Assembly (NCBI GenBank): GCA_021800365.1
Contig: JAJYZA010000004.1
Span: forward strand, 1-50,809
Direction: 5' to 3'
DNA from: Nanobdellota archaeon
GTDB lineage: Archaea > Nanobdellota > Nanobdellia > Parvarchaeales > Parvarchaeaceae
Length of the DNA: 50,809 nt
The notes under the pieces were generated by a model, which saw only the letters and a program-made list of their open reading frames with translations, did no database searches and was not told the DNA's origin. The first letter of the stretch is position 1; each line of letters starts with the position of its first letter. Positions 7,697 to 26,143 of this stretch are shown here, piece by piece. Position numbers and translations under genes: made by a program.

Positions 7697-8845
7697 TTAA
7701 GTATAGAAAAATGACTGGTACAATGCGCTTACTTCGCGCTGTGTTAATGACACGTTCCAGATCATCGGATTGTCCATCGAACCGTTAAAGTCAGCTGGAG
7801 AAATACCAGCATAATCACCGAATTGAAAGCCGGTGTTGAGTGAATCGGGCGTACCGGAATAAGGGCACGCTGTCTGTTGCCCGTCCACATATGTGATTTG
7901 GTACGTACCGTTAAAAGAATAAACGACAAAATACCATGTATCTGGCACAAAAGAAAACGATGAAACGCAAGAAACATAAGAATCGAGAGTATTCACACGC
8001 GTTTGGAAAAAATTATCCCCAGTGCTCGCTCCAACATAAAACCCGTCTGCTGAGGGGGAGGTAATCCCGGCAAGGTAATAATCTGAGCTAACTGGGTCTT
8101 TCTGTACATACACCCATGACGCTAAAGTATATCCGGTATTCGGCATTTGAAAGGTGTTCGGTATCGCGACCCAACGACTTGATCTCGTATTGGAGAAGTT
8201 CAAACAATCATTAAATTTGCAGTTAGAGGATTGCCACGTGACAGTCGAAGTCAAGGACCCGGCGTTATGGAGCAATGAAATGTCGTGAGTAGTGCTTCCT
8301 GAACCTTCATCAAAAGGCCAATCGCCTATGAGGTCAGCGCCATATAGGTTATATTGATTTGTCGATTGCCCAGTTATAATGCCATTAGCATTATACGGCC
8401 CGGACAGCGGTTGACCTGGCTCGGTATAATTTATATATACCTGTGCTGAAAATCTGGATGTAGAATTCGGACAAACGTTTAGAATGATAAACTTAGAGCT
8501 GCCTTGTGGAGAGATAAGATAATTACTCGGTAATGAGGATTGAGCTGGGAAAATTTTTGTTGATATTTGACCAGACTGGACTGCTTTTATTTCTGTTATG
8601 TTTATTGTTACCCCCAAAGAATTGCCTAAGATTATTTCTAAGCCATAGGCTGAACATTCAGCCTGTACGCTGCCTAAGCCATTGAAACCTGTGACTGTTG
8701 GTGATGCAGATAACGAGGGAGTGAAGATACCTAAGCTGTACAGCACGCCGGCTACAATTACTATGATCAATATGGCCCAGCCATAGGTCATCATGTACTC
8801 CAATGCCGACTGGGACTTTCTATTCGGCTTTGCTTTCTGAGGCAT
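7697..8845 (-). CDS. class III signal peptide (pilin-like) protein with LamG/ConA-like domain
   Basis: KSQSALEYMMTYGWAILIIVIVAGVLYSLG N-terminus; LamG-like region (IGDWPFDEGSGSTTHDIS…YTLASWVYVQKD…YVDGQQ). Confidence 0.85.
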   Translation of the reverse strand: MPQKAKPNRKSQSALEYMMTYGWAILIIVIVAGVLYSLGIFTPSLSASPTVTGFNGLGSVQAECSAYGLEIILGNSLGVTINITEIKAVQSGQISTKIFPAQSSLPSNYLISPQGSSKFIILNVCPNSTSRFSAQVYINYTEPGQPLSGPYNANGIITGQSTNQYNLYGADLIGDWPFDEGSGSTTHDISLLHNAGSLTSTVTWQSSNCKFNDCLNFSNTRSSRWVAIPNTFQMPNTGYTLASWVYVQKDPVSSDYYLAGITSPSADGFYVGASTGDNFFQTRVNTLDSYVSCVSSFSFVPDTWYFVVYSFNGTYQITYVDGQQTACPYSGTPDSLNTGFQFGDYAGISPADFNGSMDNPMIWNVSLTQREVSALYQSFFYT

Positions 8846-8869
8846 AAGGATTTATGCTGACTGGAAGAT

Positions 8870-8950
8870 TTAAAGATTAAGAAGCCATTTCCACAGAGGA
8901 ATGAACTTTATCTTCTTGCCCTTGACTTTCTCCTCGGCTTCGTAGTCCAT
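8870..8950 (-). pseudogene. 26-codon mini-ORF/3' gene fragment (MDYEAEEKVKGKKIKFIPLWKWLLNL*) upstream of the LamG pilin
   Basis: Translated directly; homologous copy at 10264-10338. Confidence 0.5.
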
Positions 8951-9096
8951 GCTTAATCGCTAATGCCCCTAGAACTTCGCGAAGCGCATCGTAGGCTAAC
9001 GAAAGTTTTGAATCTTCAACAGGATAATTTTATATTATTATTTGTTTTGATACATGAATTTTAAAAGAACAATTAGGCGTACAATTTTAATTGATT

Positions 9097-10239
9097 CTAA
9101 GGAGAAACCCAGCTCACGTTCGTCGCCACACCATTATTATTGTTTCCGCTGTAATCGTTAGCATTACCATCCAAAGGCCACCAGCCTACCAGACCCGAGT
9201 TGAGGAGTGGTGCACCACCAATACCCTCCTCATAAAGTTGTTTTATTTCGGTCGCCGACAAAGCGGTATTATACACTTGGACATTTGAAGTAGGCCCTGA
9301 CAAAGCATTGCAGCCATTTGCGGATAATGGCTGCGATCCACTAATAATCACTTTGCCTCCGTTAGACTGTATAGGACCGACGGTGGAGACATTAGTACCT
9401 ACGAGATTCCCATTAAGGTAGACCGCTATATGATTACCGTTCCAAATGCCAACAAGCTGCTGAAATACGCCCGGCGTCAATGAAACGCCTGGAAACTCTC
9501 TAAACTGAGACGCTGTAGAATTCAGTATTGACCAGGATTCCACCGGTGGGTTACTACCGGCTTCTATGAAAAAGAAAAAACTGCCCCCACAGTAGTTATT
9601 ACTAACCGCATTTTCCCAGTGATTACTGACTCCCCAATATCCGTTGTTAACTGGGTCTAACCAGAAGGACACAGTTACTCCATTCACAAAATTAGCTGAA
9701 TCTGAAGCCTGGATATAGGAAGCCTGTAATGTGCTTTGCTGGAAGCTTGCTGTTTGAGCCGGTGTCGACACGGACACAATTCCAGATATCCTGCCATTTG
9801 AAATGTAAGGTCCGGATAAAGTCTGTCCGGGTTCCTTGTATGTAAACGTGACGGGATTCGAATAAGAAGAGCCTGCGGAAGCAGGACATGCGCCAGGAAT
9901 AAAGACTAGCTGTGACTGGCTGGATAAAATTAAGACTGAGGTGTTTATCGTAACCGACTGTCCGTTTGAACCGGTGGTGTTTATGCGGGTTACGTTAATA
10001 GGGTATCCTATGCCGTTTGTTATCTGCAGCTGCAATGCTCCTCCCTGGATACATTGGCCGTTTACGCCAAAATCCGAGAAACCTGTTATCGTCGTGCCTG
10101 TGGACGATGAGGGGGTGAAGATACCTAAGCTGTACAGCACGCCGGCTACAATTACTATGATCAATATGGCCCAGCCATAGGTCATCATGTACTCCAATGC
10201 CGACTGGGATTTCCTGTTCAGCTTTGCTTTCTGAGGCAT
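9097..10239 (-). CDS. class III signal peptide (pilin-like) protein with LamG/ConA-like domain, paralog of 7697-8845
   Basis: Near-identical first ~43 residues; LamG-like domain (VSFWLDPVNNGYW…IAVYLNGNLVGTN) and C-terminal GWWPLDGNANDYSGNNNNGVATNVSW. Confidence 0.85.
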   Translation of the reverse strand: MPQKAKLNRKSQSALEYMMTYGWAILIIVIVAGVLYSLGIFTPSSSTGTTITGFSDFGVNGQCIQGGALQLQITNGIGYPINVTRINTTGSNGQSVTINTSVLILSSQSQLVFIPGACPASAGSSYSNPVTFTYKEPGQTLSGPYISNGRISGIVSVSTPAQTASFQQSTLQASYIQASDSANFVNGVTVSFWLDPVNNGYWGVSNHWENAVSNNYCGGSFFFFIEAGSNPPVESWSILNSTASQFREFPGVSLTPGVFQQLVGIWNGNHIAVYLNGNLVGTNVSTVGPIQSNGGKVIISGSQPLSANGCNALSGPTSNVQVYNTALSATEIKQLYEEGIGGAPLLNSGLVGWWPLDGNANDYSGNNNNGVATNVSWVSP

Positions 10240-10263
10240 AAGGATTTATACTGGCTGAAGGAT

Positions 10264-10338
10264 TTAAAGATTAAGGAGCCATTTCCATAATGGGACGAAC
10301 ATTACCTTCTTGCCCTTGACTTTCTCCTCGGCTTCGTA
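10264..10338 (-). pseudogene. start-less 3' gene fragment (YEAEEKVKGKKVMFVPLWKWLLNL*)
   Basis: Homologous to 8870-8944; in-frame TAG directly upstream, so not an intact ORF. Confidence 0.5.
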
Positions 10339-10570: not shown

Positions 10571-11851
10571 TTACAGCTTATTTATTATCTCATCTATTCT
10601 AGACGAAACAGCCCTTGGTTGTATTTCATATCTTTTGGCTATCATCCCAATTATGAAATTTGCCACATTTTTGTTATGTTTATACTTTTTAATTATGTCT
10701 TTCTCTGAAAGCAGCATCTCTTTTATAGCATTGTCTATTTCTTCTTGCGAGTGCAGTTTTATTTCTATTTTTTCCCTTTTTTTTAACTTTTCTATAAATG
10801 CTTTAGTCACGTCAATATTATCTTTGACGAGTTTTGCAATGCCTTCAAATATCCGACTGTCCCTTTGTTCATCGAAGCGTTTTATCACTTCGAGTGTAGC
10901 TATTATCGTCTTAAAATCGTACTTGCCTTCATATTCTTGGATTAGCGAAAGCGCGCCTCTATCAAATGCAATCAATTCTAAAATCGTTTTATAATTAGAA
11001 TCGTACTTTTTTGCAAATAACCTCGCGGCATCTGTCGATATTGTCGCCGGCGTCTCTTTTAAATCCGTCGTGTCATACACTCCAAGATCAGGTTCAAAGA
11101 TAAATCCGTACTCTTCCTCACTTTCTTTTTTCCTTGAAGATTTGGTTGTACTAGATTGCTCATCGAATAAACGTGTTTCCTTTTCTGGTTTACCGCCCTT
11201 TTTTATTATCTCATTCTGTCTGTGGATTTCATACTCCATTGCGGTAATCAAATTTTTTATACCAGTTACATTTTTGACTTCTATGCGCTCTTCACCCAAT
11301 GAGATGTTTAGATCTGCCTTTATTTCCTGATTTATATCGACACCGAGGTAATAAAGAATGGTCCTAAGCGTGAAAAGCGTTTCCCGAAGTTCTTCCTCGG
11401 TTTCTATATCTGGTTCAGTCACTATTTCCACTAATGGAATACCCGAACGATTAAAATCTATAAACGAATAGCCGTCAGCCCTTATTATTTTCGCTGGATC
11501 TTCTTCTATCTGAATTCTTCTTAGCCTTATCTGCTTCTTCTCTAGTATTATTAAACCGCCTTGGCCTATTGATTCAGCTAACTGTGTTATTTGAAATGAC
11601 TTTGGCAGGTCGGGATAAAAATAAACCTTCCTTATGAAGGAGATTAGTTTATTTACTTTGCAATTAAAAGCGATAGAAATCGACTTTGCAAATCTTACCG
11701 CTTCTTTATTTAGAACCGGCCTGGATCCAGGAAACCCCATACATGTCGGACAAATATTGGTATTTGGCTCGGCTGTCTCACTTGTAGGGTCAGAACAGAA
11801 CAGCTTTGTTTTCGTTGGCAACGCTACATGAACTTCCAAGCCGATTTTCAT
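10571..11851 (-). CDS. gatB: Asp-tRNA(Asn)/Glu-tRNA(Gln) amidotransferase subunit B
   Basis: KIGLEVHVALPTKTKLFC…NTNICPTCMGFPGSRPVLN; DFNRSGIPLVEIVTEPD. Confidence 0.95.
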   Translation of the reverse strand: MKIGLEVHVALPTKTKLFCSDPTSETAEPNTNICPTCMGFPGSRPVLNKEAVRFAKSISIAFNCKVNKLISFIRKVYFYPDLPKSFQITQLAESIGQGGLIILEKKQIRLRRIQIEEDPAKIIRADGYSFIDFNRSGIPLVEIVTEPDIETEEELRETLFTLRTILYYLGVDINQEIKADLNISLGEERIEVKNVTGIKNLITAMEYEIHRQNEIIKKGGKPEKETRLFDEQSSTTKSSRKKESEEEYGFIFEPDLGVYDTTDLKETPATISTDAARLFAKKYDSNYKTILELIAFDRGALSLIQEYEGKYDFKTIIATLEVIKRFDEQRDSRIFEGIAKLVKDNIDVTKAFIEKLKKREKIEIKLHSQEEIDNAIKEMLLSEKDIIKKYKHNKNVANFIIGMIAKRYEIQPRAVSSRIDEIINKL

Positions 11852-13466: not shown

Positions 13467-13683
13467 AGGCTATGAAAAACTCTAATAATTTATAACTCTT
13501 GATTTATTATCAAGGTTATAATAAGATACAGTAGCCTTTTGCAGTCTTCCATTTAGCTTTATAATTTTTCTCATCGTTATATCGAATTTTTAAGCGCTTG
13601 AAGATTGCCCCGTATTAAGATTGCGTGTGCAAAGCATGATTGGAGTAATTTACTTTGATAATTTGCAATGGAATACGTCAACA

Positions 13684-14286
13684 TTACTCAAGTAATTTTC
13701 GCGTGTTAAATAATTCCTGCCGTTCTGCATTTTCCAAGAACTCCGATATCAGTCTTTCTTGTAGGTTTAGAGACGGTAGGAGTTTTTTGTTTAAGGCGTT
13801 GTAACGTCCTTTCGTTCTTGAGATTGCAGCGGATAATTTTCTTATGCGGATGTAAAGATTTACGTCAATTATAAGCTCTCTGAAAAGCTGCTCAAATTTG
13901 CTGCTTGCTTCTTCTAGACGGATAGACGTTGAAAGTTCACCGTAATCCCTTTTTACGACCATGTCCTTAAGTAGAAGGGAAGGAATAAAAGTCCCTATTA
14001 AGTTTTCTGTTTTAAAATTTAGTGACAGGTTATTAATTATTAGATTAGATGCTGATAAGACACTTTGCACCCCATCAAAGGCGATGGCAAATTTTATACG
14101 TTTCATCGCAATCGAGATAATCGCGTTCTCATTGTCTATATCCCTCTCATAGTTGAGAAAAGTTGATAGGAGCGTTGCCGTTAAGAGCACTGTCTTCTTT
14201 CTTAAGACAGACTTCCCATACTCCACAAGTCGTTTTACTCTAACTAGCTTTAGAAGATCATTCCGTGTTCTTTTGTATTCCATCAT
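13684..14286 (-). CDS. atpD: A-type ATP synthase subunit D
   Basis: Position in operon; RTRNDLLKLVRVKRLVEYGKSVLRKKTVLL…RTKGRYNALNKKLLPSL. Confidence 0.85.
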   Translation of the reverse strand: MMEYKRTRNDLLKLVRVKRLVEYGKSVLRKKTVLLTATLLSTFLNYERDIDNENAIISIAMKRIKFAIAFDGVQSVLSASNLIINNLSLNFKTENLIGTFIPSLLLKDMVVKRDYGELSTSIRLEEASSKFEQLFRELIIDVNLYIRIRKLSAAISRTKGRYNALNKKLLPSLNLQERLISEFLENAERQELFNTRKLLE

Positions 14287-15632
14287 TTCTTACCGTATTT
14301 TTCTATAATATTTTTCTCTATCCTCGGCAATGATTGTAAATCCTTCATTATTGTCCAAGCTAAATCAAGCGTTTCCTCTATGCTTCGGGGCTCGCCTGGC
14401 TGCTGACGTATAAACTTATTCTCAAAATCATCGAGAAATTTCAAATATATTTTGTCGTCGTCTGATAGTCCGTTTTCTCCTATAAGAGCAGAAAGATTAC
14501 GCGCATCCATCCCTTTCGAAAATGCAAAATAAAGTTGGTTCGCTACCTGTCGATGGTCCTCGCGTGTAAAGTTTTTGCCTATCCCATTATCCATAAGTCT
14601 TGAAAGCGAGCCGAGTACATCTATCGGCGGAAATATCTTTCTATTAAACAGGTCTCTGCTCAAGAGTATCTGGCCTTCTGTTATGTACCCGGTAAGGTCT
14701 GGAACCGGATGTGTTATGTCGTCGGATGGCATTGTAACTATCGGGATAAGTGTTATGCTTCCTTTTAAATCCTTTATCTTCCCGCATCTTTCGTATATCG
14801 TAGCTAAATCGGTATATAAAGATGATGAATAGCCCCTCCTCCCAGGCACCTGCTTTCGCTCGGAAGAGAGCTGCCTAAGCGCATCCGCATAACTAAGCAT
14901 GTCTGTAAGCACCACGAGTACATCATATCCTCTTTCGAATGCAAGATATTCTGCATGTGTCATTATTATTTTGGGAAGAGTAATCCTCTCTATAATTGAA
15001 TCGCTTGCGCGATTTATGAAAACCGCGGTCCTGTCGCCATTCTTGCCGTCTAAAAGATCCGTGAATTTATTAGCTTCACTGTCCTTTACGCCCATAGCGC
15101 CAAAAAGAACGGCAAATTTAGTGTCCTTGCGGGTCTTTGCGTTCTTGACTATTTCTATAGCTATATCGCTACCAGGGAGTCCACTGCCTGAGAAAATAGG
15201 CAGTTTTTGACCCATTACTAAAGAGTTTAGACAGTCTATACCCGAAATTCCTGTTTCTATGAAGTCTTTTGGTTTATCCCGGACATACGGGTTTATCGGA
15301 CTGCCATAAACTATGGTTTTCTTTTCAGGCACCAACTTTCCACCGTCTGTTACCCTGCCCAAACCATCGAATGCTCGACCCAAAATGTGTTCTGTAACGC
15401 CGATCGAGAATATTTCGCCTGTACATGTGACCTGTAATTTACTTCTGCTTAAACCCCGCAGCGGCCTAAATGCCTCAACGACTGCATCTTGTCCATATGC
15501 AGTTATTATTTCCCCGAGCATTTCTGTACCGCCGGAATTTATTATGCACATATCTCCGTTCATTGCATTTTCTACACCGGTTACGGTTATGAGCGGGTCC
15601 TTTATTTTTGTTATTGTCTTATAAGTTTCCAT
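14283..15632 (-). CDS. atpB: A-type ATP synthase subunit B
   Basis: LPIFSGSGLPGSDIA…FAVLFGAMGVKDSEA…VLTDMLSYADALRQLSSERKQVPGRRGYSSSLYTDLATIYERCG. Confidence 0.95.
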   Translation of the reverse strand: METYKTITKIKDPLITVTGVENAMNGDMCIINSGGTEMLGEIITAYGQDAVVEAFRPLRGLSRSKLQVTCTGEIFSIGVTEHILGRAFDGLGRVTDGGKLVPEKKTIVYGSPINPYVRDKPKDFIETGISGIDCLNSLVMGQKLPIFSGSGLPGSDIAIEIVKNAKTRKDTKFAVLFGAMGVKDSEANKFTDLLDGKNGDRTAVFINRASDSIIERITLPKIIMTHAEYLAFERGYDVLVVLTDMLSYADALRQLSSERKQVPGRRGYSSSLYTDLATIYERCGKIKDLKGSITLIPIVTMPSDDITHPVPDLTGYITEGQILLSRDLFNRKIFPPIDVLGSLSRLMDNGIGKNFTREDHRQVANQLYFAFSKGMDARNLSALIGENGLSDDDKIYLKFLDDFENKFIRQQPGEPRSIEETLDLAWTIMKDLQSLPRIEKNIIEKYGKK

Positions 15633-22608: not shown

Positions 22609-22680
22609 GGGCCCGGAGGGGTTCGAACCCTCGGCCTCCACAATGTGAATGTGGCGTCATAACCACTAGACCACGGACCC
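22609..22680 (-). tRNA. tRNA-Val (CAC)
   Basis: Cloverleaf: acceptor GGGUCCG/CGGGCCC, anticodon arm CCACA-UUCACAU-UGUGG, T-arm GAGGG-UUCGAAC-CCCUC. Confidence 0.95.
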
Positions 22681-23714
22681 TATATGCCCCCGATTGAACC
22701 GGCCGATGAACTACTGAAAAATGACGATACGCCGAACCTAACTGCAAAGAATATGCCAATACCAATCAAAATATAGATTGGCACTGATTTCAAGCCGTCC
22801 TTCGCCCGGCCACTATTCAATATACCCCCAAGCAACGCGCTCGAGGTAGTTGTTATTACCACATTTAAAACAGAAACTATCAATATCAGGTTGGTTGAAA
22901 TCTGAGGTAACGAAAAAGATGAAAACGTCCCCCCCAGCCCGGCTCCATATGATGGGACTTGCGTAGATGAAGATGAAATACTGCCTATGCTATCGAGTAT
23001 TCCTATAAGAAACGACGCCACCCCGTACAAAAGTGGTGCTGCAATCGTAGAGGCCAAAAATATAAACAAAGAGTAGCTTCTTACTTGCGCACGCATGTCG
23101 TTTCTTATGCTTTCGTTCTGCAGTATATTTGTAGCTAGATTTTCTAGGATCAAGTGGAGCTCAGCGCCGGACCGCAGACCTTCTCCGATTATCCTCATAG
23201 TATCTCGGAAAAACCGCGACGTTGTTCTGGATGCCATCTCAATTAACGCATCACTGAAATTTTCCCCGCCCTGCACTTCTATGGCCGCGTGACTTAACAA
23301 GATGTTCAATTTACCAAATTCCGGCTTTATAGACGCCAAAAAAGAATTCTCGGGAATCATACCGGCACGCAAGTTGGCTGCCATGAGCATCAGCATGTCT
23401 GGCAATACTTTTTCTATCTGTGACGAAATTTTGTCTGCGATCATGTCGTATAAAATTTTTATAAAGAAGAAGAGACCGAAAAACGATATAAACGCGGTTA
23501 TTAAAGTAAGAAGTGGCGAAGAGGTAAATTTAAAAATAAAGAGTGCGGCCACTGCCGAGACAATAAACATAAAGACCATCAATGAGCCGATTAAACTGGA
23601 AAAATCATCCGCTTGCACCTGTGCGTATACCATACTCTGTTCCAGCACCATTCTAAGTTGCTTTGGAAGTATCCTGGAAAGTTTCGCTGCGGGATTTGCA
23701 GACTCGCGTGCCAT
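22680..23714 (-). CDS. type II/IV pilus assembly membrane protein (TadC/T2SF-like)
   Basis: T2SF pattern LMLMAANLRAGMIPENSFLAS…GGENFSDALIEMASRT; multiple TM helices. Confidence 0.8.
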   Translation of the reverse strand: MARESANPAAKLSRILPKQLRMVLEQSMVYAQVQADDFSSLIGSLMVFMFIVSAVAALFIFKFTSSPLLTLITAFISFFGLFFFIKILYDMIADKISSQIEKVLPDMLMLMAANLRAGMIPENSFLASIKPEFGKLNILLSHAAIEVQGGENFSDALIEMASRTTSRFFRDTMRIIGEGLRSGAELHLILENLATNILQNESIRNDMRAQVRSYSLFIFLASTIAAPLLYGVASFLIGILDSIGSISSSSTQVPSYGAGLGGTFSSFSLPQISTNLILIVSVLNVVITTTSSALLGGILNSGRAKDGLKSVPIYILIGIGIFFAVRFGVSSFFSSSSAGSIGGI

Positions 23715-24626
23715 TTAAACACCTACCGCCGGACGCCTGTTTCCAACCATTCCCATGAAGAATATTTCGAATATCAAAAGGAAAGGAGGTATAAGATAAA
23801 CTATGTAAAGTGTATTAAATGTTTTCGCCAATGAACCGAGTATAAGGAACACTGACATACCAAGGCTTGGTAAAACCACCGACACGAGCATATATGCCAT
23901 AGAAAGTGGCGTTAATTCGGCGGAATAAGCACGCATGTCAGATTGTTGTTTTTTTATCAACATGTCGTTTATAAGTTCAAGAGTGCCGTGGACGTCGCTA
24001 CCTGATTTTATTGCATTAACCAATATATCAACGGACCGCCTAAGAGATTGGGATGGCACGCGCGCGGAGAGCCTTAGCAATGCCTGTTCTTGAGAGATGC
24101 CAGATTCTATTTCCTCAACAGTCTCCTTAAATTCAGCAGAAACTATCCCATAATCTCCATTCGCAACATCAAGAATCGCGTTGAATACGGGAACACCGGA
24201 ACCTACCTTTATCATTACTTCCCTGATAGCAAAAACAACTTTTTCGTCTATAAGCGCCTTTCTTTTCTCAGCTACCAGCTTAGGGTAATTTATAAAATAA
24301 AGAAAATACACAAAAGGGACGACAAAAATCAGGACCAACAAAATCCCTAAGAACTGAGTAGTAAGAGCGCCCACTTGCTTCATGGCTACCAAAGCAAGCA
24401 TCATTGATACGCCAAAAAGCATCGCCATCATCAACAAAGTAACGAATATGCCTGCCGAGATGTAATCTATCGCGGGGATGTTAATGCCTGCTTCTAAAAG
24501 TGAGTGCTCTACATTTAAGGAAAAGTTCTTTATTCCGGCCGCTATCTTTCGGAATCTCCTTCCAAAGAATAATGCCTTCTCGGGAGAAACGAGAACGGTC
24601 GGTAGAAATATCTTTTCCGTCTTCAT
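23715..24626 (-). CDS. type II/IV pilus assembly membrane protein (TadB/T2SF-like)
   Basis: VREVMIKVGSGVPVFNAILDVANG…QALLRLSARVPSQSLRRSVDILVNAIKSGSDVHGTLE. Confidence 0.8.
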   Translation of the reverse strand: MKTEKIFLPTVLVSPEKALFFGRRFRKIAAGIKNFSLNVEHSLLEAGINIPAIDYISAGIFVTLLMMAMLFGVSMMLALVAMKQVGALTTQFLGILLVLIFVVPFVYFLYFINYPKLVAEKRKALIDEKVVFAIREVMIKVGSGVPVFNAILDVANGDYGIVSAEFKETVEEIESGISQEQALLRLSARVPSQSLRRSVDILVNAIKSGSDVHGTLELINDMLIKKQQSDMRAYSAELTPLSMAYMLVSVVLPSLGMSVFLILGSLAKTFNTLYIVYLIPPFLLIFEIFFMGMVGNRRPAVGV

Positions 24627-26143
24627 ATAGATTCTAGTTTTGCCGGGTCTGCATTTGTATTGACTAGTTCAATGAGCGCATCTTTTCTTGTGTAATATAT
24701 GCTGGCCATACGCCCTATCAGATTTAGATTATTGACATTTTTATCTATCATCCAATTCAATACTTTTTCTTTTTCTTCTAAATCCGCCGTTATCTCTTCG
24801 TGCGTCAGTCCGGAGTACAGCTGAAGTTTTGCTTCCAGTTTCTGCGATACGTTTATCGTTCTTTCTATCTTATCAGTTCTTGCCTTCCACTCGAAAAGAT
24901 TATTCGTTTTTAGTTCAACCTTGCCAGAAACGTAATGCTCTATGACTTCAGACAGTTCAAATACCCGCCGTATACCGGTACGTCTCTGTCTAAAAGCGGT
25001 TAGTATCAGATCCATTGCCGAGACCTCTATATCTGGCAGGTCTATCGGTTCTGAAAGTAGGCGTTTTATAACTTGCTGCGCCGTTTCGGCGTGAAGGGTG
25101 GCATAAACGGAGTGTCCCGTCATAAGAGCTTCAAATAGGGTTTGTGCGTCTTCCTTCTTTCTTATTTCACCAACGACTATTCTATCCGGTCTCATTCTAA
25201 GAGAGTTTACCAAAAGATCAAGCATTGTAACTTCTCCCTTTCCTTCCGAATTTGGTTGCCTCGTAAGAAGCGGCACCCAATGAAGGAAGCTAGGCAAAAG
25301 CAGCTCGCTTGTATCTTCTATTGTTATTATTCTTTGGTTTGGAGGGATAAATGGCATAAAAACGTTGAGAAGGCTCGTTTTACCCGATGCTGTGCCGCCA
25401 GTAACGATTATAGAAAGTTCGTACTGAATCGCCTGCCATACGAATGAGACTAGCTGCGGGGAAAGCGTCTTTAATTTTAGAAAATCTGTTACGGTCCATG
25501 GGTCTGCACGAAACTTTCTTAAGTCTAAAGTGTTCCCATGCACAGAAATCGGATACAGAGTCGCATTGACGCGGTCTCCGCTGACTAACTGAGCATCGAG
25601 TATCGGAGATAAAGTCGTTATCTGCCTGCCGACTTTCCTCGCAACCTGTTCAGATAAGCTCGCGATCTTGTTCTCGCTATCGATTCTTATGTTACTCTCG
25701 AGCCATGCGTATTTTCTATGGTACACCATTACCATAGTTTTTGAATCGTTAACGACTATCTCTTCTAGGTTTGGATCGTTATCAAGTATCTCTAATACGC
25801 CCAAGCCAAACATCTCATGAAGTAAGGTTGCGGAAAGCTCGACATACTGTACATCCTGCAAAGCTGGCAAGATCTCCCTTAATTTTTTATCTACGGTGCC
25901 TAGAAATTCCACTCTGAGGGCAGGGCTCGTATTTGCGGAAAGATCCTGTATTTTTTGCGGAAATTCTCTTATCAAATCAGTTCTTAACTCTGTAAGAATC
26001 GCTCTCATCCCCGCGTCTATTACAGGTACGTGCGCCCGGTAAACCAATGTGAATTTCTTCTGTATGCGCAGTATATCTATTTTAGCCACTATGCCGTCAG
26101 ATACCACATTATATGTATCTATTAACTCTTCTTCGGCTCCCAT
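24623..26143 (-). CDS. type II/IV secretion system ATPase (archaeal TadA/PilT-family)
   Basis: Walker A IIVTGGTASGKTSLLN; RIITIEDTSELLLP; RMRPDRIVVGEIRKKED; TGHSVYATLHAETA. Confidence 0.95.
   Translation of the reverse strand: MGAEEELIDTYNVVSDGIVAKIDILRIQKKFTLVYRAHVPVIDAGMRAILTELRTDLIREFPQKIQDLSANTSPALRVEFLGTVDKKLREILPALQDVQYVELSATLLHEMFGLGVLEILDNDPNLEEIVVNDSKTMVMVYHRKYAWLESNIRIDSENKIASLSEQVARKVGRQITTLSPILDAQLVSGDRVNATLYPISVHGNTLDLRKFRADPWTVTDFLKLKTLSPQLVSFVWQAIQYELSIIVTGGTASGKTSLLNVFMPFIPPNQRIITIEDTSELLLPSFLHWVPLLTRQPNSEGKGEVTMLDLLVNSLRMRPDRIVVGEIRKKEDAQTLFEALMTGHSVYATLHAETAQQVIKRLLSEPIDLPDIEVSAMDLILTAFRQRRTGIRRVFELSEVIEHYVSGKVELKTNNLFEWKARTDKIERTINVSQKLEAKLQLYSGLTHEEITADLEEKEKVLNWMIDKNVNNLNLIGRMASIYYTRKDALIELVNTNADPAKLESI

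Follow-up and report, generated by a model that had tools for sequence, protein, structure and literature searches.

Lectin-type pilin genes with a near-identical 5' block and variable bodies in a parvarchaeal genome

The Neisseria pilE/pilS system combines a constant N-terminal part of the pilin with a variable C-terminal part, and a silent promoterless store feeds one expression site. A different arrangement is found in Streptococcus sanguinis, where the type IV pilin PilC is modular and includes a ConA-like lectin domain; glycan binding was shown for PilC (PMC9934059; PDB 7oa7, 7oa8). In archaea, class III signal-peptide proteins with DUF2341 were proposed as tip adhesins (PMC4858521); furthermore, the report on 'ARMAN' archaeon Mia14, an ARMAN-2 relative (Micrarchaeota), describes an expansion of LamG genes, some of them linked to type IV pilus loci and located in genomic islands (PMC5498576). 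Full-text searches of the open-licence literature yielded no case in which antigenic variation, gene conversion, or concerted evolution was described for archaeal pilins.

We analyzed a window comprising the whole stretch of 50,809 nucleotides (50.8 kb) from an 898-kb MAG of 30 contigs that is 98% complete and belongs to a small, probably host-dependent Parvarchaeota archaeon. Two adjacent minus-strand genes, gene A (7697-8845, 382 aa) and gene B (9097-10239, 380 aa), open with the same class III-type leader, which a preliminary description of this DNA had quoted correctly. Their 5' ends lie in a direct repeat of 261 nt with 89% identity (8684-8944 and 10078-10338, both on the minus strand), the sole direct repeat of ≥40 nt in the window. 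The core of this block comprises 230 nt (8715-8944 and 10109-10338) with about 93% identity; hence, the length of 229 bp given previously was correct within one base, and the repeat extends slightly further at lower identity. A near-identical 5' end followed by a divergent 3' body, as described before, applies to the pair of genes A and B but not as a general rule: gene B and three other genomic copies have a longer 5' stretch of about 500-550 nt in common (89-95% identity), and the same four genes also have a conserved 3' tail. The length of the constant part varies with the pair compared.

Both genes are predicted to encode a type IV pilin-like anchor followed by a LamG/ConA lectin-type domain. 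The leader and hydrophobic helix are encoded at 8714-8845 in gene A (cleavage motif RKS|QSALEY, in which Q is residue +1 and E residue +5; helix 15-37 in the model) and at 10108-10239 in gene B (helix 14-37), and a beta-rich pilin domain follows at 8366-8698 (C64, C125) and 9778-10092 (C63, C118), respectively, all on the minus strand. The two pilin-domain cysteines are invariant in an alignment of 48 sequences. LamG/ConA-type domains were assigned to 7727-8179 in gene A and 9241-9723 in gene B, both on the minus strand and both with PF13385 matches above cut-off (E 7.6e-18 and 1e-17). Gene B additionally has a conserved C-terminal tail, GLVGWWPLDGNANDYSGNNNNGVATNVSWVSP (9100-9195, minus strand), which resembles the first strand of LamG and is common to several paralogues. 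The motif of this strand (GLVGWWPLDGNANDYSGN) lies C-terminal in gene B and in its usual position on the N-side in gene A. When searched for with a loose pattern, it was C-terminal in 35 of 55 genes of LamG size; a circular permutation of gene B-type LamG domains is possible.

Structure models (AF2) reached a mean pLDDT of 72 and a pTM of 0.64 for gene A, and 77 and 0.68 for gene B, with a pLDDT of about 90 up to residue 370. A transmembrane helix is present in both; confidence was high for most of the beta pilin domain and mixed for the LamG part. With Foldseek, gene A gave a best E of 2.8e-10 and matched S. sanguinis PilC (7oa7, E 2.2e-7; also 7oa8) as well as sialidase lectin domains and AbnA domain 4. 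For gene B, pentraxins and the LamG domains of laminin and PAPP-A were matched, and, separately, the archaeal type IV pilus structure 8fk7. The earlier assignment of the distal bodies as LamG-like is confirmed by the PF13385 matches in both genes and the ConA-like folds found with Foldseek. A short charged leader, a cleavage motif with E at +5, and a hydrophobic helix, traits of the class III type, were recognized by eye and in the models; the Pfam class III signal-peptide model gave no match to the leaders, nor did any curated model of this class. An identity as TafC was rejected, the NCBIfam matches being far below cut-off. Judged by the models, PilC is the nearest solved modular pilin. Like PilC, gene A is predicted to combine a prepilin leader, a pilin moiety, and a ConA/LamG lectin module on the C-terminal side. 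PilC, however, is one member of a bacterial five-pilin set, whereas here about 20 archaeal paralogues, putative lectins, appear to have exchanged bodies.

Type IV pilus assembly genes are located in the same window at 22680-26143 on the minus strand. They comprise a T2SSE ATPase (24623-26143; PF00437, E 2.9e-37), a T2SSF platform protein (23715-24626; PF00482, E 4.8e-14), and a third membrane protein assigned by position and length only (22680-23714). A prepilin peptidase (PF01478) is encoded on contig C4; the genome thus holds the peptidase as well as the assembly ATPase and platform expected for type IV pilins. A second pilus ATPase locus is found on contig C26 upstream of a pilin copy.

The block had 18 DNA matches in the genome, 13 of them with ≥88% identity over 177-261 nt. 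One further near-identical copy is cut by a contig end, resulting in 14 canonical copies, and the leader gave 22 matches, with about 21 related leaders in the genome. E-values of 1e-134 to 1e-62 for the 13 best copies exclude chance. Contig C3 carries five copies within a single array spanning roughly 11 kb. Contigs C3, C7, C11, and C23 end at or beside pilin copies; thus, the repeat family apparently fragments the assembly, the true copy number may be higher, and the joins between anchor and body at these sites could be mis-assembled. Block matches were obtained in all 27 congeners searched, and between 4 and 30 leaders per genome were counted in eight congener genomes. In two genes with the canonical anchor, a DUF2341 body takes the place of LamG, and a beta-propeller body stands on one related leader. 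In their DUF2341 bodies these two copies resemble the archaeal tip-adhesin candidates; unlike there, LamG and DUF2341 bodies occur here behind one near-identical promoter-leader block. The repertoire that had been proposed for this DNA, i.e., pilus proteins in which lectin-type bodies vary behind a constant anchor, agrees with the number of DNA and leader matches, the LamG folds, and the pilus machinery, and the genome-wide count extends far beyond the two copies in the window.

The upstream DNA in the block had been noted in the preliminary description, but its nature was missed: the upstream half of the block is the 3' end of an AAA_14/DUF4143 gene. The sequence 5' of the pilin ATG can be read as a protein C-terminus, ...AEEKVKGKKIKFIPLWKWLLNL-stop, and in each of the 14 canonical copies this stop is located 24 nt ahead of the ATG. 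In the window, the same in-frame tail (YEAEEKVKGKKIKFIPLWKWLLNL-stop) is present without a gene body at 8870-8944 and 10264-10338 on the minus strand. Complete AAA_14 + DUF4143 ATPases own this tail frame on contigs C23 (once) and C11 (twice); everywhere else, both window copies included, the tail is a relic only. PADLOC lists these ATPases as PDC-S01, i.e., candidate defence genes. In congeners, the DUF4143 ATPases mirror the pilins in that their bodies diverge while the last 28 or so codons are constant (90% at the amino acid level and 66% identical codons vs. 40% expected, e.g., L167-L171 in genome G015). The 78-nt upstream piece was also considered as a stand-alone att-like site and rejected, because it is the DUF4143 ATPase 3' end and conserved in the protein too; its distance to the pilin, furthermore, is not fixed in other species.

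A TATA-like TTTAAA box is located about 25 nt before the ATG (8869-8874 and 10263-10268, minus strand), a position that suggests a leaderless promoter. Across 13 copies, the region from -50 to -1 including TTTAAA and the greater part of the leader are 85-100% identical, and identity drops to background near +170. These observations bear on the cassette switching considered in the preliminary description, by which silent cassettes would be copied into one expressed locus during growth as in pilE/pilS or Borrelia vlsE. Active switching of this kind would fit the constant 5' end, the variability of the 3' part, the mosaic genes, and the few body pieces that have no promoter. However, each of the 14 canonical copies has its own promoter-like block at identical spacing, and the promoterless pieces resemble truncated leftovers rather than a store. 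Since the block is present in every canonical copy and promoterless fragments are few, one expression site fed from silent copies is not apparent; switching in the pilE/pilS sense is therefore unlikely. The genes share with Neisseria pilE/pilS the constant N-terminal and variable C-terminal part and mosaics consistent with gene conversion; apart from the promoter block in every copy, they differ from it in that whole domains change instead of short segments.

Anchors and bodies were compared in trees of 54 LamG-size genes from eight genomes, with an anchor of 105 nt. The anchor tree contained 12 genome-label changes as compared to 35 after shuffling, the body tree 34 as compared to 34.9. By these trees, leaders cluster by genome, but bodies do not. 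The anchors of the source genome form one side of a branch in the 105-nt tree, in which few branches are strongly supported, and the leaders of genomes G006, G016, and G021 are not cleanly separated. In 20 of 23 reciprocal interspecies body pairs, both anchors were nearer to the best paralogue of their own genome than to the partner. The leader protein is nearly invariant across the genus; its codons differ between species and are nearly the same within the source genome. Among codon pairs for the same amino acid in the anchor, 81% were identical as compared to 34% expected at saturation. Recent copying from a founder without ongoing conversion would likewise yield similar anchors.

Within the source genome, the genes at C3:33904 and C13:1343 have an identity of only about 50% in their first ~480 nt, which cover leader and pilin domain, but are 93-100% identical for most of the roughly 600 nt of LamG. 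Apparently, a LamG body was swapped between loci. Plain duplication, tandem or dispersed, after which the bodies diverged fast under selection and no recombination took place between copies, would account for genes A and B being adjacent in the same orientation and for the five copies in the C3 array. Such a history is contradicted by the breakpoints, i.e., the abrupt jumps in identity inside genes, and it does not fit anchors that cluster by genome next to bodies that do not, or unrelated body folds on one anchor. Furthermore, the synonymous codons of the anchor are unsaturated, while the bodies often cannot be aligned as DNA. We regard duplication alone as quite improbable.

Comparison with the congener G021 revealed 89.5% identity for the pilin at C3:30734, 89.7% for the ATPase on C23, and 87.1% for the AbiE pair on C7. 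The baseline for transfer consisted of two housekeeping regions, of which only alaS was found in G021; alaS was 68% identical to that of G021, and gatAB 64-73% to those of other congeners. Values of 87-90% for pilin, ATPase, and AbiE against 68% for alaS indicate that these genes move horizontally. Homology of the transferred pilin extends from the SQS codon to the stop, and that of the ATPase stops at its stop codon.

The 5' ends of shared tracts in the source genome mostly lie at about -120 to -50, and the 3' ends at about 90-190 or 420-475 nt. Such varying ends are as expected of conversion tracts and not of one fixed site. Mosaic genes of the pilE/pilS type are present, and from this pattern we infer gene conversion. 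The conversion or body exchange that had been thought possible earlier is thus in agreement with the tract ends, the swap between C3:33904 and C13:1343, and the anchor and body trees. Compared with Mia14, the expansion of LamG proteins in a DPANN archaeon is a common feature; the constant 5' block, concerted anchors, body swaps, and the link to a DUF4143 ATPase tail set the present genes apart from the Mia14 account in its accessible part.

In the C3 array, pilins are interleaved with AbiE pairs, MNT/HEPN pairs, and an ATPase, and truncated pilin pieces occur as well. The preliminary description had not mentioned these interleaved pairs, and part of them move between species as well. AbiEi/AbiEii and MNT/HEPN pairs were located at L041:4639-5878 and 10781-11786 and at L042:10348-11275 and 13579-15217. 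Promoterless 3' pieces of pilin genes were found at L041:10222-10674, at C7:15214-15366, and downstream of C3:25206; they look like leftovers of earlier replacements. A tRNA-linked insertion was considered, and one tRNA only was found beside a pilin. Viral contigs gave no match to the block and one weak LamG match, and virus-borne spread was rejected. A diversity-generating retroelement was rejected too, since a search of this 98%-complete genome for reverse transcriptase (PF00078) gave no match at E up to 0.1.

The block might also be the target of a dedicated site-specific recombinase or of a mobile element, so that bodies, ATPases, and toxin-antitoxin pairs would be inserted there like integron cassettes. 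Transferred units indeed have sharp gene-sized edges, at the leader and stop for the pilin and at the stop for the ATPase; congener ATPases have a constant 3' end and divergent bodies, and AbiE and MNT/HEPN pairs are interleaved. On the other hand, the tract ends vary in the source genome, the viral contigs have no block match, and other species do not have the same junction, the ATPase tail being near only 8 of their 77 pilins and at different spacings. A dedicated recombinase target appears improbable. Conservation of the anchor solely through functional constraint on promoter and leader, which the near-invariant leader protein of the genus would allow, is most improbable, because the same leader peptide is encoded by codons that differ between species and are nearly the same within the source genome, which would demand strong species-specific codon selection, and because the relic of the ATPase tail is also conserved where no ATPase gene is attached.

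A modular repertoire of lectin-type pilins, the 5' ends of which would be homogenized by conversion and the bodies diversified by recombination and transfer, is the probable explanation, as judged from the sequences. It would comprise about 20 type IV pilin-like adhesins in which leader and transmembrane helix serve pilus assembly. The bodies behind the beta pilin domain would be exchangeable; they are mostly LamG/ConA, but also DUF2341 and, on a related leader, a beta-propeller. The block of ATPase tail, promoter, and leader probably has a single origin in this lineage, at a junction of an ATPase and a pilin gene. Gene conversion or homologous recombination may then have copied it over the 5' ends of 14 or more pilin genes. 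Such copying would keep the promoter and the anchor uniform in genes with different bodies. New bodies may be acquired by recombination at the leader, at the boundary between pilin domain and LamG, and near the conserved 3' tail; in addition, whole genes may be received from other species of the Parvarchaeota. The proteins would presumably be displayed on pili and bind sugars; they may serve in adhesion to a host archaeon, and contact with a host is suggested by the general biology of the group (PMC5498576, PMC10134863).

A further-reaching idea, which we consider doubtful, is that the junction of ATPase tail, promoter, and leader acts as a shared homology platform in Parvarchaeota, by means of which lectin-pilin bodies, DUF4143 ATPases, AbiE pairs, and MNT/HEPN pairs pass from one locus to another, both inside a species and across species. 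If this were true, the platform would be an archaeal counterpart of surface-antigen and defence diversification, and it could set host range. The lectin-pilin repertoire itself, recombining throughout the genus and with junctions of exchange that can be recognized, provides candidate recognition molecules by which ultrasmall DPANN archaea may recognize their hosts. It also leads to a testable rule: the anchor would be characteristic of the species and the body of the ligand.
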